From Arthrobacter cupressi (GTDB taxonomy: Bacteria > Actinomycetota > Actinomycetes > Actinomycetales > Micrococcaceae): a DNA stretch of 64,000 nt. The position numbers and the translations under genes were made by a program. Below the pieces are notes generated by a model, which worked only from the letters and a program-made list of their open reading frames with translations, was not told where the DNA came from and did no database searches. Of this stretch, positions 38,577-44,731 are shown one piece after another. The stretch lies in contig NZ_FNEI01000001.1 of the NCBI RefSeq assembly GCF_900099975.1, positions 62,001-126,000 of the forward strand. Reading direction: 5' to 3'. Numbering within the stretch: position 1 is the stretch's first letter; every line of letters begins with the position of its first letter.

Positions 38577-38683
38577 GTTCGGTGCACGAGGCCTGCTCCA
38601 CAGGGTCAAGCGCCGGACACGCCTACAAGCATACAAGCTGCGGACGGGACGGCCGAACACCTGGCGCCTGTACGCTGGGCCTG

Positions 38684-39466
38684 ATGGCAAAGCAGACGTC
38701 AGCCCCGGCCGTGCCGGGCAGCTTCCTGCCCGACCTCGGAAGCCCGCGCTCCCTCGTGGGCGCTTGGGCGCAGCTCAGCGTGGTGCAGTACTTCGCTGCC
38801 GAAGCCGCTGTGATCGAGGCATGGGCAGCACCGCAACCCTACGACCGCCGGACCGGCTTCATCAGCGACCTGGGCGCCGTCAACTGCGCAGTCTACGACG
38901 GGCGGGACGTCTGCTCACCACTGCACCTGCTGATGAATGCCTCGTTCGTGGTCCAGGGCCTGGGGCTGCTCCTGGGTGCGCTGCTGCTGGGCTCGGCGAT
39001 GCTGTGCATTGCGGCCCGGCCGGGCGTGCGCATCCTGCAGGACACGGCGTACCTCAAGGGCCGCAGCGGCGCCATCGGTGCGCGCATCCTGACCGGGGCG
39101 GCCGGCGCGGGGACGGTGATCGTGGGGCTGGTGCCGGAAGACTACGGCTCGCCCTGGCACTTCGCCGGCGCGCTCATGTACTTCATCGGAGGCGCCTTCG
39201 CCTTGCTGCTGCTGGGTTTCCTGTGGCTTCCGCACACCAGGATGAGCTGGTTTCTGCTGGCTTGCGGCACGGTCTGCTTCGCGGCACTCATCGCGGGCGC
39301 GGTGACCCGGATGGAGCTGCCCGAGCCCGGCACCCTGGAACGCCTGATGGCCTATCCGCTGACCATCGGATTCTCCGCGGCAGGCCTGCTCATTGCCACC
39401 CGGGTGCGGCGTGTCCGGCGCATTGCGGCCAGCGCGGCGGCGTGGGACAGAAGGGAGCGGATGTGA
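38684..39466 (+). CDS. DUF998 family membrane protein, copy 1
   Basis: 260 residues, about six membrane helices. 'DRRTGFISDLGAVNC' and 'CSPLHLLMNASFVVQGLGLLLGALLLG' are the DUF998 pattern. The function of the family is unknown. The ATG at 38684 lies 7 nt after a TACGCT -10 box, so the mRNA is probably leaderless. A paralogue stands 3.6 kb to the right at 43108 with the same order of motifs (ISDLGA-NC, CSPL-LMNASFV-QG, GLVPED/GLIPED). Confidence 0.85.
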   Translation: MAKQTSAPAVPGSFLPDLGSPRSLVGAWAQLSVVQYFAAEAAVIEAWAAPQPYDRRTGFISDLGAVNCAVYDGRDVCSPLHLLMNASFVVQGLGLLLGALLLGSAMLCIAARPGVRILQDTAYLKGRSGAIGARILTGAAGAGTVIVGLVPEDYGSPWHFAGALMYFIGGAFALLLLGFLWLPHTRMSWFLLACGTVCFAALIAGAVTRMELPEPGTLERLMAYPLTIGFSAAGLLIATRVRRVRRIAASAAAWDRRERM

Positions 39467-39570: not shown

Positions 39571-39984
39571 ATGAGCAATCAGCAGACCACGCGCCAACAA
39601 GGTGGCACGGACCTGGCAAGCGCCGAGAAGATTGAAATCGGGCTGGATGACGGGGGCATCGTGGAAGTGGTCCTCCCCGTCTGCTCGGAGATTGGTGCTC
39701 CGGAAGCCCAGGCAGCGGCGGCTGTCGTGCGCTCGATGTCCGGCGGGCGGAAACGCCCGGTGCTGATGACTGTCACTGGCGTGCTGGACATCACCGACGG
39801 TGCCCGCGCCGTCTACGCCGCCGCCGAGACAGTCTCGGCCTTCGCCCTCCTTGGCGAAAGTCCCGTGGACCGGGTGCTCGCGCATTTCCTGCTGAGGGCC
39901 ACCCCGCAGTCCGTTCCGGCACGTTACTTTACTTCCGAGGCCGCTGCCCGGGAGTGGCTGGCAGGTTATCTTCGTGAATCCTGA
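39571..39984 (+). CDS. STAS/SpoIIAA-like protein upstream of a GGDEF-EAL gene
   Basis: 137 residues from the ATG at 39571, 105 bp after the DUF998 gene. After a polar leader of 20 residues, 'EIGLDDGGIVEVVLPVC' and 'GRKRPVLMTVTGVLDITDGAR' and 'LLGESPVDRVLAHFLLRA' and 'PARYFTSEAAAREWLAGYL' follow the strand-helix pattern of SpoIIAA-like/DUF7793 STAS proteins. They are soluble switch proteins. Its last 11 bp overlap the start of the GGDEF-EAL gene, so a joint role in that signalling protein's control is likely. The family assignment is from pattern memory and is moderate. Confidence 0.7.
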   Translation: MSNQQTTRQQGGTDLASAEKIEIGLDDGGIVEVVLPVCSEIGAPEAQAAAAVVRSMSGGRKRPVLMTVTGVLDITDGARAVYAAAETVSAFALLGESPVDRVLAHFLLRATPQSVPARYFTSEAAAREWLAGYLRES

Positions 39985-41494
39985 GCAGCAGGATCCCCGC
40001 CTCCTGGCGCTGGTGGAGGGCGTGATCCGGATCGCCGACGGCGATCTCAGCACGCGTATCCCGCTTTCCGGGCCCCGGGACGAGGTTGCCGCAGTCATCG
40101 CGGGAATCAACCTGATGGCCGACGATCTGCAGGCCGTATACCGGGAGCTTGAAGAACGGGTCGAGAGCCGCACGGCAATGCTCCGCGAAGCCCAGATTGA
40201 GCTCGAGCGGATGGCCCTGACCGATCCCCTGACCCAGCTGGCCAACCGCACGGCCCTGAACCGCGCGCTGAGCACCGAACTCGACGGAACCGCCGCCGGT
40301 GAACTGCCGCCGGCGCTGCTTGTCCTGGACTTGGATTCCTTCAAGGGGGTCAACGATCGGCTCGGCCACAGTGCAGGTGACGATGTACTCCGGATTACCG
40401 CGAAGCGCATCAGCGACGCCGTCCGCGACGGCGACATGGTGGCCAGGCTCGGCGGGGACGAGTTCGCCGTGATGCTGCCCAAATCGAACGTGATGCAGGC
40501 CCGCGGCGTGGCCAAGCGGATACTGCGCGCCCTGGCGGAGAGCATCGAGATCGGCGATCTGCGGATCGTTTGCGGTACCAGCATCGGGCTCCGGGTCGCC
40601 GAACCGGGTCAGACCGTAGACGAACTCGTGATGGAGGCCGACACCGCGATGTATGCGGCCAAGGCCGAGCAGCGCAATACTGTCCGGGTGTTCGAGCCGG
40701 CTTTGCTGCACGCGCGGCGGCTGCAAGGGCAGATGATCACCGAGCTGCGCGAAGCTATCCGGACGGACCAGCTGGTCCTGTACTACCAGCCCGTGGTGGA
40801 GCTGGGAAGCGGCCGGGTCGAGGGAGCCGAGGCGCTGGTGCGGTGGAACCACCCCGAGCGTGGCTTGTTGATGCCGGATAAGTTCATCCCGCTGGCCGAG
40901 GAAACCGGCCTCATTGTGGACCTCGGGGACTGGGTCCTCCGGGAAGCCCTGCGGCAATTGCGCACTTGGCTGGACACCCCGGGACTCGTCGACGACTTCA
41001 GCATGCGCGTGAACATTTCACCCACGGAGCTAAGAAGCCTCGAACTGATCGAACGGGTGCGCGAGGCGCTCAACGCCGCCAGCGTCGACGCTTCAAAGCT
41101 GGTCATCGAGCTCACGGAATCGGTGGCGGTCAACGGTTCCGACCTCGACCGCTATTCCTTGTCCGGCCTGCGCCACCTCGGCGTCCAATTGGAGATCGAC
41201 GACTTCGGCACGGGATACTCCTCCATCAGCTACCTGCGCAACCTGCCGGTCCACGTCGTCAAGATCGACCGCTCCCTCATTCAAGGACTGGGCACCGATG
41301 ACGGCCAGCGGGACTTCGTTGCGGCGGTGCTCCAACTGATCCACGCCTGTGGCATGGCGGCCGTGGCGGAAGGGATCGAGACCGCTGAACAGGCCGCGGA
41401 GCTGTCCTGGCTTGGATGTGCCAGCGGCCAGGGTTACTACTTCAGCCGCCCGGTGCCGCCCGAGGACTTCGTCCGCCTACTGGGCCGCTCCTGA
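39974..41494 (+). CDS. GGDEF-EAL c-di-GMP signalling protein, cytoplasmic
   Basis: 506 residues, no membrane helix. The N-terminal 75 residues look like a HAMP-type signalling helix pair ('IRIADGDLSTRIPLSGPRDE') leading to a coiled stalk. The GGDEF domain has an intact active site (GGDEF at 160-164) and an RxxD inhibitory site (Arg151 to Asp154) exactly 5 residues before it. The EAL domain has the 'EALVRW' signature, 'DDFGTGYSS' loop and 'EGIET' motif, so both cyclase and phosphodiesterase sites look active. The start is GTG at 39974, inside the STAS-like gene's end. A HAMP without its own membrane anchor suggests that the STAS-like partner supplies the input. Confidence 0.92.
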   Translation: MNPEQQDPRLLALVEGVIRIADGDLSTRIPLSGPRDEVAAVIAGINLMADDLQAVYRELEERVESRTAMLREAQIELERMALTDPLTQLANRTALNRALSTELDGTAAGELPPALLVLDLDSFKGVNDRLGHSAGDDVLRITAKRISDAVRDGDMVARLGGDEFAVMLPKSNVMQARGVAKRILRALAESIEIGDLRIVCGTSIGLRVAEPGQTVDELVMEADTAMYAAKAEQRNTVRVFEPALLHARRLQGQMITELREAIRTDQLVLYYQPVVELGSGRVEGAEALVRWNHPERGLLMPDKFIPLAEETGLIVDLGDWVLREALRQLRTWLDTPGLVDDFSMRVNISPTELRSLELIERVREALNAASVDASKLVIELTESVAVNGSDLDRYSLSGLRHLGVQLEIDDFGTGYSSISYLRNLPVHVVKIDRSLIQGLGTDDGQRDFVAAVLQLIHACGMAAVAEGIETAEQAAELSWLGCASGQGYYFSRPVPPEDFVRLLGRS

Positions 41495-41596: not shown

Positions 41597-41842
41597 CTAG
41601 ATGTCGTCTCCGGTCGTGGTGGAGTTCGGCCACCAGCCACCGGCTTCTACCGAGCTGTTGTAGAAGTGGGGCCACCAGCCACCGGCATCTACCGAGGTGT
41701 TCGAGATGTGGGGCCACCAGCCACCGGCGACGGAGGTATCCTGCGCAGGATTTTCGGCACTAGCCGAAATGGCTGCCGACGTGGAAAATCCGGCCACCGC
41801 AAGTGCGACAGCGGCGAGGAATGTGGCGATGGTTCTTTTCAT
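41597..41842 (-). CDS. Small secreted precursor with three GGWWP repeats
   Basis: 81 residues. A classical signal peptide (MKRT, then a 'FLAAVALAVAGFS' core, cut after Ala-Ser-Ala near residue 33) leaves about 48-50 residues. These hold three 14-residue repeats, 'TSVAGGWWPHISN', 'TSVDAGGWWPHFYN' and 'SSVEAGGWWPNSTT', then an acidic end 'GDDI'. At DNA level a 17-bp core, GGCCACCAGCCACCGGC, recurs exactly at 41628, 41670 and 41712. The start at 41842 follows GAGGAG and a TATACT promoter. No cysteines, no anchor. I do not recognise the family. Tandem short motifs after a signal peptide resemble multi-copy peptide precursors, but a wall-binding role is equally possible. Confidence 0.8.
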   Translation of the reverse strand: MKRTIATFLAAVALAVAGFSTSAAISASAENPAQDTSVAGGWWPHISNTSVDAGGWWPHFYNSSVEAGGWWPNSTTTGDDI

Positions 41843-41899
41843 ACGGGTGCTCCTCGTAGGTGACTGGTGTGATGCAAGAGAACGGAGTGAAACGTAGTT

Positions 41900-41929
41900 A
41901 GTATAGCGATTTGCGACACGCGGTGTCAC
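41900..41929 (-). promoter_or_regulatory. Promoter and palindromic operator for the repeat peptide
   Basis: On the minus strand, -35 GTGACA (41924-41929), 18-nt spacer, -10 TATACT (41900-41905). A GACAC-GCG-GTGTC palindrome (41915-41927) covers most of the -35 and spacer, a position suited to a repressor. Transcription would start near 41893, about 50 nt before the ATG. Confidence 0.65.
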
Positions 41930-42016
41930 TAGTGAGTTTACGATTTTCGGGGAAAGTGGTATTTTTCCGCCCTGCTGTCGGACAACACTTCACCGCATTC
42001 TCGGCATAATGGGGTC

Positions 42017-43057
42017 ATGCCGGATAACAGGGGGACGCCGTCCTACGCAGCCGCTGAGCTGCGCGCCAGGGAGCTCAGGGCCAGCCACGAATTCGCCAAG
42101 GCGGCGGATAGCGCACGCATAGCCGCGGATACGGCACGTGCGGACGGTGACATCTCCGGGTGGTGGAACATGGTGTTCTTCCAGGCCGAGAACCTGCTGG
42201 ACGCCGGGGAGTCCGGCGAGGCCGCAGATCTCGCCCGGACGCTGGCAGAAGCGCCGGTGACGGCGGCCGCACCGCGGGATCGGGCGAGGGCGCTCGTCCT
42301 GCTGGCAAATTCCCTGCAGGGCAGGGGACTCCTGGATGACGCGGCCACTGCGGCGCAGTCCGCCGTCGGCCTGCTTGCCGATGACGCCGACGCCGAGTTT
42401 GAAGTCCACGCCCGCCAGGCCCTGATCGCGGCGCTCGCGGAGTCCGGCAAGCTCGACGAGGCCTGGACGGAATCCCTCGCGCTTTCCGAGCGTATCTCGG
42501 ATGACATGGATGACCAGTTGGCAGGTAAGGCCTACTGGGTCATCGGCAACGTTGCCTTCCTGTGCAATATGGTCGAGGAAGGCCTGGAGCACCACGAACT
42601 CGCCGCGGACACGTTTTCGCCGTCGAGCAACCTCGACGTCTGGGCGAAATTCAACAAGGCCTCGGCCGCGATGCGCCTGGCGGCAGGGGTGGCCGATTCC
42701 GGCACCCTGCGTTGCATTGAACGCGCAGAACTTGCCACGGATATTGTGGGCGGCAGCGAAGAGGAGATCCTCCTGTTGCGCTACGTGCGCGCCCACTGGA
42801 CGTTCCTGGCCGGAGACGTCCCGGCCGCGATCCTCCTGTTGAATGAGGTCACTGGATCCGCTGACAAGCTTCCGCCGCAGACGGCAGGGGAGGCGTTCCT
42901 GCTCCTCGCGCGGGCCGAAGTTTCGGACGGGCGCCGGGAGGCCGCGGAGTTGAGCGTGAAGAAGTCGGTGGAGTATTTCGAGAAGGCCGGTGCCCGGCAG
43001 CGTGCCGCGCAGGCGGGCGCGCTCCTCTCCGAAGGCATCGACGCTCCGCCCGTCTGA
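42017..43057 (+). CDS. TPR-repeat protein divergent from the repeat peptide
   Basis: 346 residues, all-helical, with paired helices of the TPR type across the whole length: 'EFAKAADSARIAADTARADGD', 'GRGLLDDAATAAQSAVGLLA', 'EESLALSERISDDMDDQLA'-like and 'GRREAAELSVKKSVEYFEKAGA'. No HTH, membrane span, signal peptide or enzyme motif is visible, so it is a cytoplasmic protein- or peptide-binding scaffold. The size and HTH-free plan resemble Rap-type proteins. The ATG at 42017 is 6 nt after CATAAT, so the mRNA is leaderless. It shares a 174-bp region with the peptide gene. Could also be an ordinary TPR adaptor. Confidence 0.8.
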   Translation: MPDNRGTPSYAAAELRARELRASHEFAKAADSARIAADTARADGDISGWWNMVFFQAENLLDAGESGEAADLARTLAEAPVTAAAPRDRARALVLLANSLQGRGLLDDAATAAQSAVGLLADDADAEFEVHARQALIAALAESGKLDEAWTESLALSERISDDMDDQLAGKAYWVIGNVAFLCNMVEEGLEHHELAADTFSPSSNLDVWAKFNKASAAMRLAAGVADSGTLRCIERAELATDIVGGSEEEILLLRYVRAHWTFLAGDVPAAILLLNEVTGSADKLPPQTAGEAFLLLARAEVSDGRREAAELSVKKSVEYFEKAGARQRAAQAGALLSEGIDAPPV

Positions 43058-43107: not shown

Positions 43108-43878
43108 ATGACGACGGCGGGTACCCCGCGGGCGGGCGACCGTGCACTGCTGCCGGACCTTGCCGGACGGCGTGAACTGGTGGGTGCCTGGGCGTCCCTG
43201 AGTCTCATCCACTATTTCGTGGTCGAAGCCGCGGCCATGGCAGCCTGGCAGGGCTCGCCGGCGTACGACAGGCGCTCCCACGTGATCAGCGACCTCGGCG
43301 CCGCGAACTGCGGCCCCTTCAACGGCCATGAAGTCTGTTCGCCCTTGAACTGGCTCATGAACGCCTCCTTCGTGCTGCAGGGCATCGCGATGGTGCTCGG
43401 CGCGGTGCTGCTCAGCTCCGCCGTCCTGTCCGTGGCGGCGCGGCCCGGCCAGCGGGCCATCCGGACGGGTCCCGGCAACATTCCGTGGCTGGCCGCCGGG
43501 GCGGTGAGGGCCTTGATCCTGGTGGCCGGAATCGGGCAGGCCATGGTCGGCCTAATCCCCGAGGACACGGAACTGGTGTGGCACCTGACCGGCGCCGGCC
43601 TCTATTTCATTGCGGCCCCGCTGGCCCTGGCGATCCTCGGCCTGGTGTGGCTGGGCCGCAGCACGATGTCCTGGATGGTGCTGCTCTTCGGTGTGGTGTC
43701 GCTCGGGGGCACCGTCTTTGTGCTGGCCTCGGCGCTGCGCGTGGACGAACCGGGAGCCATTGAACGGACCATGGCCTACCCGATCATCCTGGGGCTGTCC
43801 CTGGTGGGCCTGACGGTCGCCTACCGCGTGCACGGCGAGCGCCGGCGGGTGCGCCGGCTCGCCGCAGGCGCCGGGTAG
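43108..43878 (+). CDS. DUF998 family membrane protein, copy 2
   Basis: 256 residues, about six membrane helices, paralogous to the protein at 38684: 'SHVISDLGAANCG', 'CSPLNWLMNASFVLQGIAMVLGAVLL', 'GLIPEDTELVWHLTGAGLYFI' and 'IERTMAYPIILGLSLVGLTVA' correspond in order. Function unknown. The ATG at 43108 lies 7 nt after a TATATT -10 box, again giving a leaderless mRNA, and 50 bp after the TPR gene stop. Convergent with the following membrane protein. Confidence 0.85.
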   Translation: MTTAGTPRAGDRALLPDLAGRRELVGAWASLSLIHYFVVEAAAMAAWQGSPAYDRRSHVISDLGAANCGPFNGHEVCSPLNWLMNASFVLQGIAMVLGAVLLSSAVLSVAARPGQRAIRTGPGNIPWLAAGAVRALILVAGIGQAMVGLIPEDTELVWHLTGAGLYFIAAPLALAILGLVWLGRSTMSWMVLLFGVVSLGGTVFVLASALRVDEPGAIERTMAYPIILGLSLVGLTVAYRVHGERRRVRRLAAGAG

Positions 43879-44546: not shown

Positions 44547-44571
44547 CCAACCATTATCCCGCCACTTAACG

Positions 44572-44731
44572 CCTATCCGCTTCCCCAACCTCGCTGCGCT
44601 CGGCCGGGGCCCCTCGCGGATAGCGCCTATCCGCTTCCCCAACCTCGCTGCGCTCGGCCGGGGCCCCTCGCGGATAGCGCCTATCCGCTTCCCCAACCTC
44701 GCTGCGCTCGGCCGGGGCCCCTCGCGGATAG
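44572..44731. repeat. 54-bp unit repeated three times in a divergent promoter region
   Basis: Units begin at 44572, 44626 and 44680; the first two are identical and the third matches to 44731. Each unit carries terminal inverted repeats CTATCCGC and GCGGATAG and a CGCTGCGCTCGGCCGGGGCC core, so each can fold as a hairpin. The end of the third unit supplies the first bases of the TAGGCT -10 box of the next gene. There are no unique spacers. Confidence 0.92.

Follow-up and report, generated by a model that had tools for sequence, protein, structure and literature searches.

Does a small secreted repeat protein of Arthrobacter cupressi form a signalling pair with the tetratricopeptide-repeat (TPR) protein encoded back to back with it and, if so, on what would the pair act? 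Both genes lie in a stretch of 64,000 nucleotides (the window; NCBI RefSeq assembly GCF_900099975.1, contig NZ_FNEI01000001.1, positions 62,001 to 126,000 of the forward strand), to which all coordinates refer unless another locus is named. A preliminary description of the DNA had read the pair as a quorum system of the Rap/RRNPP kind. The pair probably belongs to an RRNPP-like peptide signalling family of the Micrococcaceae, of which the branch lacking a helix-turn-helix (HTH) domain would act on a cyclic di-GMP (c-di-GMP) enzyme; it appears to be an undescribed cell-to-cell signalling system of soil bacteria of the Arthrobacter group. This reading is carried by four results established by sequence comparison: a conserved pairing of the genes, conservation of a peptide core with pherotype-like variation, HTH-bearing paralogs with Trp-Pro (WP) peptides of their own, and linkage of the HTH-less receptors to a GGDEF-EAL gene.

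Precursor, receptor and their pairing

The pair consists of the following features.
41600–41842, minus strand: secreted multi-copy peptide precursor, 81 amino acids (ATG at 41842, stop codon 41597–41599)
41756–41842, minus strand: predicted Sec-type signal peptide, residues 1–29 (cut between ASA and E, read from the sequence)
41687–41728, minus strand: repeat 1, AGGWWPHISNTSVD (read from the translation)
41645–41686, minus strand: repeat 2, AGGWWPHFYNSSVE (read from the translation)
41600–41644, minus strand: repeat 3, AGGWWPNSTTTGDDI, C-terminal (read from the translation)
42017–43057, plus strand: HTH-less TPR protein, 346 amino acids, candidate peptide receptor (from its sequence, homologs and predicted structure)

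The two genes are divergent, with 174 bp between them. The signal-like residues 1–29 of the precursor (cut between ISASA and EN by our own reading) are followed by a short spacer and then by AGGWWPHISNTSVD, AGGWWPHFYNSSVE and AGGWWPNSTTTGDDI. A signal peptide and an invariant Ala-Gly-Gly-Trp-Trp-Pro core had been described before and were confirmed in the 81-residue protein, the signal peptide as a prediction; of the three 14-residue repeats described, all three were found, the first two with 14 residues each and the last with 15. Sec export was assigned from the sequence by our own rule (a basic start and an uncharged hydrophobic core), to which the precursor conforms. A longer open reading frame (ORF) starting with GTG at 41929 was considered and found to be unnecessary, as AGGAGC sits just 5′ of the ATG at 41842. 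Comparison with the nearest relative, from Arthrobacter celericrescens (locus L122; receptor 89% identical), gave nonsynonymous and synonymous differences of pN = 0.073 and pS = 0.363, and one AGGWWP core of the relative was spelled with different synonymous codons; on both counts the window precursor behaves as a conserved coding gene.

The pairing was followed through a genus sample of 150 genomes drawn from a larger group. Precursor matches were obtained in 63 genomes (E ≤ 0.001); the TPR protein had a homolog in every one of the 150 (E ≤ 1e-10). Among the matches listed, the homologs fell into two paralogs: TPR-A (43–100% identity to the window receptor) in at least 86 genomes, with one broken copy outside these in genome G131, and TPR-B (about 40%) in nearly every genus genome listed, the incomplete genome G073 giving a weak match only. 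The TPR-A loci examined were 85 of 86 (85 genomes), the broken-receptor locus L119 and the second copies L102 and L121 being excluded. A secreted precursor with an (x)WP motif was found at all 85, in 84 cases divergent and 94–220 bp from the receptor start inferred with BLAST; in the exception (G079, the same as L133 by contig) it lies about 1.6 kb upstream of the receptor. At the 86th locus, in G048, a precursor match was recorded beside the receptor.

In a set of 80 named loci from Arthrobacter, Pseudarthrobacter and Paenarthrobacter (76 TPR-A-like; 51 overlapping the genus set), application of a fixed rule recovered a divergent secreted-WP ORF no more than 450 bp from the receptor in 77, against a chance expectation of 0.010 per slot obtained from 814 kb of flanking DNA, which excludes chance pairing. 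The three misses were L133, with the peptide farther upstream, and L173 and L196, where the first receptor is close to a contig end. On co-occurrence in other genomes, chosen beforehand as the point on which the proposal could fail, the pair was present at every intact TPR-A locus examined in the genus.

L133 (4378–6000, Arthrobacter sp. MA-N2) is the sole adjacency break among these intact loci, with about 1.4 kb of extra DNA separating precursor from receptor. The receptor copies at L119 (G131) and L218 (G176:C45) look broken by a frameshift or stop; the G131 precursor is still intact.

Peptide cores and the receptor groove

The 95 distinct precursors of HTH-less receptors are 41–121 residues long, some exceeding 100, and contain from one to six copies of the motif (51, 21, 5, 12, 5 and 1 precursors, respectively). 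The last WP is followed by 0–1 residues in 40 of the 95, by 5–7 in 46 and by 9–10 in nine; since so few residues (0–10) remain, the mature peptide is probably located at or near the C-terminus. For multi-copy precursors, 77 ORFs were gathered over all loci and four spurious ones were dropped by eye; in 71 of the remaining 73 the tripeptide before WP is identical across all copies. Between species this tripeptide varies (GGW, TGW, IGW, VGW, PGW, VGN, IGN, TGN, IGD, VGE, VGD, VWI, PGI and others), and the linkers differ inside many precursors. A core that is identical within a precursor and divergent between species looks like the product of concerted evolution of a recognised core, as in pherotypes. 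The preliminary description had known of no counterpart to the GGWWP motif, and a literature search for it returned only one irrelevant paper; the motif itself belongs to a broader xxxWP family (GGWWP, GNWPDPM, GEWPH, GIWPN and others). A literature search for NWPDPM found none.

The window TPR protein, searched alone against Pfam, matched no family at E ≤ 1; single TPR families were matched at this level by up to 38 of 61 members of the receptor family. RNPP_C was matched in only two of the 61, at E 0.064 at best. No HTH was found in the window receptor or upstream of its gene with Pfam or with an HTH profile. An AlphaFold2 model of the receptor, built with 61 relatives (mean pLDDT, the predicted local distance difference test, 92.9), has 18 helices, which begin at residue 8, are regularly paired and form a regular superhelix in TPR order; together with the fold matches and the negative HTH profile it bears out the earlier claim of an all-TPR protein without an HTH. 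The best matches in the PDB were the TPR domains of LGN/Pins (Z 25–27), mostly complexed with partner peptides or proteins. RRNPP receptors ranked among other TPR proteins (NprR, Z 20.2; RapI, 19.6; RapH, 19.5; pLS20 Rap, 18.9), RapI and RapH aligning over most of the model (RapI over residues 8–345).

Concave-groove positions were assigned by us from the TPR register, not from coordinates. They are more conserved than the rest of the receptor (mean entropy 1.04 versus 1.49), and E58, K171, W174, N178, H260 and E292 hardly vary at all. At position 292, all 106 receptors whose peptide has W, N, D or S before WP carry E, and all five whose peptide has Y there carry D; these five also have R256 (E292D/Y256R). 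For peptide residue −3, two clades showed an excess of covarying receptor columns in the groove (p 0.0005 in either clade by label permutation, with phylogeny ignored), and this enrichment ranked 3 and 2 of 330 shifted controls in the respective clades. Two independent changes to P at −3 were accompanied by similar shifts of TPR residues 97, 183 and 185 in nearly all rows, a pattern that is no more than suggestive. When the window pair (G) is set against its closest T-type relative, the fixed differences in the receptor are scattered across the protein.

HTH-bearing paralogs and the GGDEF-EAL gene

The upstream region of TPR-B encodes an XRE-type HTH fused to the TPR part. The paralog in the A. 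cupressi genome itself (G000:C24, locus L202; HTH_31, E 8.9e-12) faces a divergent precursor with four IGNWPDPM copies. The HTH was present at each of the ten distinct TPR-B loci examined in the genus, as was a GNWPD precursor (L118/L198, L200, L201 and L202–L208). In a second AlphaFold2 model, of the HTH-TPR paralog, the HTH part was covered by only four rows and was of low confidence, mostly under pLDDT 50. HTH-TPR receptors of other genera of the family face FVGNWPDAVAP (five copies), VGEWPH (two), VGDWPH (six), VWIWPD (two), PAVGNWPDRFYSVT (five) and PGIWPD (three), and in family f17 of the same order such a receptor faces TVGGSWPTSQDP, with three GGSWPT copies. At 59 further receptor loci a peptide was found in 32, comprising 12 of 13 HTH-less and 20 of 46 HTH-bearing loci. 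An ORF containing NDWPISYPR beside L233 was weak and was not counted as a peptide.

A Micrococcaceae sample of 245 genomes from 32 genera contained the receptor family in 115 genomes and 17 genera. A sample of the order contained it in 23 of 347 genomes, only three of which, from family f17, lie outside the Micrococcaceae, and a sample of the class in six of 394, all Micrococcaceae or f17. An origin from a mobile element was rejected, the receptor being without a match in phage or plasmid records; a match on a viral contig (L265) covered only some 40 residues (13 bits with the profile) and was without a WP precursor. L219, L220, L176 and L195 (genus g31 and relatives) carry two tandem HTH-less receptors, both accompanied by a precursor of their own; one of the precursors terminates in DDWPH or DNWPN and the other contains GNWPD/G repeats. 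This is possibly a second channel arisen by duplication.

Directly adjoining the precursor–receptor pair is a gene that was absent from the earlier account, itself overlapped by a smaller one.
39974–41494, plus strand: HAMP-GGDEF-EAL protein, candidate target of the receptor (Pfam EAL 2.9e-73, GGDEF 3.5e-42, HAMP 2.3e-8)
39571–39984, plus strand: small DUF7793 protein, overlapping the HAMP-GGDEF-EAL gene (PF25056, E 3.1e-16; SpoIIAA-like only below the cut-off)

The GGDEF and EAL signature motifs are intact by reading. A GGDEF-EAL homolog was found at 76 of 76 HTH-less named loci (in 73 within about 2 kb of the receptor) and at none of the four HTH-bearing ones, and a DUF7793 homolog at 70 of 76 and none of four, respectively. 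The arrangement varies and the link persists: the GGDEF-EAL gene lies upstream with the peptide gene between, as in the window clades, or downstream after DUF7793, and in Paenarthrobacter it lies downstream and overlaps the stop codon of the receptor gene. In 60 further loci, mostly with flanks of about 2 kb, it was present in eight of 13 HTH-less and none of 47 HTH-bearing loci (Fisher p 5e-7, which is not a count of independent events because the loci are related by descent). After widening of the five other HTH-less loci, four had a GGDEF-EAL gene about 4.5 kb away, giving 12 of 13. The HTH state of every locus was checked with a profile; the flanks of HTH-bearing loci were mostly shorter, with 9 kb at L118 and L202 and 6 kb at the four named loci. 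Over all distinct loci, with three duplicates removed, the enzyme gene stands beside 87 of 88 HTH-less and none of 49 HTH-bearing receptors.

Proposed working, alternatives and known systems

Export, processing, import, binding and output are inferred from these sequences. The precursor would be exported via Sec and trimmed to short peptides with an xGWWP[N/H] core, which would be taken up again, probably through an oligopeptide-type ATP-binding cassette (ABC) importer (the genome encodes nine SBP_bac_5 importer proteins), and would bind to the TPR protein in its concave groove. The sister receptor, which has an XRE DNA-binding domain, presumably acts on promoters; the window receptor, being without such a domain, probably acts by protein contact, and its most likely target is the adjacent HAMP-GGDEF-EAL enzyme, in which case the peptide level would tune c-di-GMP. 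A bolder formulation, put forward tentatively and with slightly less than even confidence, is a 'WP code', a new peptide language of the Micrococcaceae, in which the sampled Arthrobacter genomes would each have one orthogonal channel or two. In the first, xGNWPD would be read by a transcription regulator of HTH-TPR build; in the second, xGWWP would be read by an HTH-less TPR protein that, by direct protein contact, couples this peptide from outside the cell to a c-di-GMP cyclase/phosphodiesterase. If this is true, the second channel is a peptide-gated second-messenger switch. In this major soil genus, a conserved peptide–receptor family whose codes differ between species would make density sensing accessible to tests with synthetic peptides. 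Through the HTH-less branch, a path leading from a peptide outside the cell to c-di-GMP could likewise be put to the test. Paralogs with and without the HTH, occurring next to each other, may also reveal how a DNA-binding receptor and a protein-contact receptor are converted into one another, in either direction.

Several results weigh against this reading. The nearest folds are those of LGN and not of RRNPP receptors, and with LGN ahead of the RRNPP rows, RRNPP membership does not follow from the fold alone; a profile search of PDB sequences gave 19 at E ≤ 10 and no RRNPP chain among them. Core DNA is often identical between the copies of one precursor, so that recent duplication or conversion accounts for part of the repeat homogeneity. 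The five receptors with E292D/Y256R form one clade and count as a single event. The enrichment for peptide residue −3 gave a rank-sum p of 0.0096 in clade 2 but of 0.12 in clade 1, groove sets shifted by one or three residues retained part of the effect, some small shifts almost matching the true groove, and in clade 2 the groove was not enriched for residues −2 and −1 (p 0.86 and 0.99). The scans of the 59 further receptor loci found no peptide in 27 (26 of HTH type), where it may have been lost, may use other start codons or may be located elsewhere. The GGDEF-EAL gene is present in 148 of 150 genus genomes and the HTH-less receptor in at least 86; being far wider spread, the enzyme does not require the receptor, and for the same reason linkage is the informative test and presence or absence is not.

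The precursor promoter bears on what else the receptor might act upon.
41849–41854, minus strand: Shine–Dalgarno sequence AGGAGC of the precursor (AGGAG conserved in clades 1 and 2 by alignment)
41900–41905, minus strand: −10-like TATACT of the precursor promoter (TATACT or TATAAT in 12 clade-1 sequences aligned)
41914–41928, minus strand: palindrome TGACACCGCGTGTCG in the −35/spacer region, candidate operator (TGACACsGCGTGTCG in 12 of 12 clade-1 sequences)

The TPR-A palindrome has one exact copy in the A. cupressi genome and one more with a mismatch, and the reversed control pattern matched once; the promoter motif of the HTH paralog, TTTACAATNNNTGTCAAC, occurs once with up to two mismatches allowed. 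With so few matches, and one to the control pattern, no wider regulon is predictable. At L202, 5′ of the HTH-TPR gene, the promoter of the GNWPD precursor contains a strongly conserved TTGACA...TTTACAATnnnTGTCAAC block, a candidate autoregulatory site that occurs once in this genome and has similar counterparts in several genera.

The conserved palindrome is among the grounds for a rival in which the same peptide–receptor pair has an output other than c-di-GMP, the receptor titrating a transcription factor (for example in mixed dimers with the HTH-TPR paralog) or acting on the palindrome via a third protein. Rap proteins do act on transcription regulators, and a partner would be at hand in the paralog of about 40% identity found in nearly every genus genome listed, with an HTH in ten of ten distinct loci examined. 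Among the clades aligned, however, the palindrome was seen in clade 1 only, the promoter motif of the paralog differs and occurs once in the genome, and the association of HTH absence with GGDEF-EAL presence would be left unexplained; this output is considered unlikely, with perhaps one chance in several. Still less likely is self-sensing, in which the peptide would report on the export or proteolysis of the cell itself and be taken up only by its producer. It would give the same anatomy and has been discussed for some Firmicutes systems; pherotype-like divergence between species fits social signalling better, without proving it.

A Trp-rich, secreted, multi-copy peptide could also be antimicrobial or wall-binding, with the TPR protein for immunity or as an accessory, and species-specific variation would suit a toxin–immunity pair as well. 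This is improbable, given that HTH-bearing paralogs adjoin the same kind of peptide, that in loci with genes listed the TPR-A pair had no recognised dedicated modifying enzyme next to it, that the HTH-less receptor occurs in at least 86 of 150 genus genomes, and that immunity would be an odd role for a TPR protein that is cytoplasmic and linked to a c-di-GMP enzyme. Least credible of all is that the two genes are unrelated neighbours: dozens of species have kept the pairing, which also recurs among paralogs and other genera and greatly exceeds the background. The preferred reading thus remains RRNPP-like signalling with c-di-GMP as the probable output of the HTH-less branch. The earlier Rap/RRNPP proposal is supported in part, by the conserved pairing, the HTH paralogs with their own W-P peptides, the homogenised species-specific repeats and some receptor residues that track the peptide; the binding of the peptide by the TPR protein is a predicted element of it.

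Among known systems, Rap proteins are HTH-less TPR proteins that act by protein contact on response regulators, have an N-terminal three-helix bundle before the TPRs and are encoded beside a Sec-exported Phr precursor. RapI and RapH align over most of the window model (Z 19.6 and 19.5), and Rap membership is not claimed; the RapH–Spo0F and RapF–ComA structures among the fold matches show response-regulator targets, whereas the gene linked here encodes a c-di-GMP enzyme. RpfR has GGDEF-EAL domains and itself binds the fatty-acid signal DSF (diffusible signal factor). XIP (the sigX-inducing peptide) is read by an HTH-TPR receptor and is derived from small single-copy ComS. The type II XIP of streptococci is a short pheromone with a WW motif (PMC5131902, in the part used), and the double tryptophan shared with it may be convergence; unlike ComRS, the system described here is predicted to be Sec-type and is often multi-copy and based on xWP rather than on WW alone, and the window receptor is without an HTH. 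DSF–RpfR likewise ties a quorum signal to c-di-GMP turnover, in gram-negatives (PMC6361424, in the part used), but here a peptide and a separate TPR protein are involved. Tandem pheromone copies occur in some Phr precursors according to the portion of PMC11343458 used.

The sections of PMC10075063 drawn on here describe RRNPP systems by a propeptide of 10–100 residues, its Sec secretion, a receptor of 250–500 residues, TPRs in that receptor and genes −60 to 400 bp apart. The window pair agrees in four of these five points (81-residue propeptide, 346-residue receptor, TPRs, 174 bp), Sec export having been assigned by our own rule. The HTH-TPR fusion of the PlcR/NprR/ComR type is not found in the window receptor and is found in its own-genome paralog G000:C24. 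Like the RRNPP systems (Rap, Rgg, NprR, PlcR, PrgX and AimR), the present one has a small precursor, predicted to be of Sec type, directly beside a TPR receptor of 250–500 residues, in HTH and HTH-less forms; it differs in phylum, in having no detected sequence similarity to known RRNPP structures, and in its new W-P code, up to six copies, divergent genes and GGDEF-EAL link. Because homology with the known RRNPP receptors was looked for without success, it is filed as RRNPP-like in build and probable working and not as a proven member. On its sequence features this is an RRNPP-type architecture in the Actinomycetota, and the RRNPP literature examined, in the parts used, treats the type as a Firmicutes system: the survey data of PMC10075063 are from Firmicutes and viruses, with Actinobacteria said typically to use enzyme-made small molecules, and PMC9765709 deals with RRNPP within Firmicutes. 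Actinobacterial signals in PMC4748050 are γ-butyrolactones and cyclic or modified peptides, with only LuxR-type predictions for Arthrobacter; they share density signalling and phylum with the present system, which uses a peptide and a TPR receptor instead. The portions of PMC4748050 and PMC10075063 used make no mention of a TPR-receptor peptide system for Actinobacteria, and a search of the open-licence literature recognised no such WP-peptide/TPR system in print.

The block formed by the receptor and GGDEF-EAL genes is flanked in the window by two paralogous membrane-protein genes (38582–39466 and 43108–43878; 48% identity over 247 amino acids), of which that at 43108 encodes a DUF998 protein (E 2.1e-13). 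Just downstream, at 44570–44731, lies a perfect 54-bp tandem repeat in three copies.

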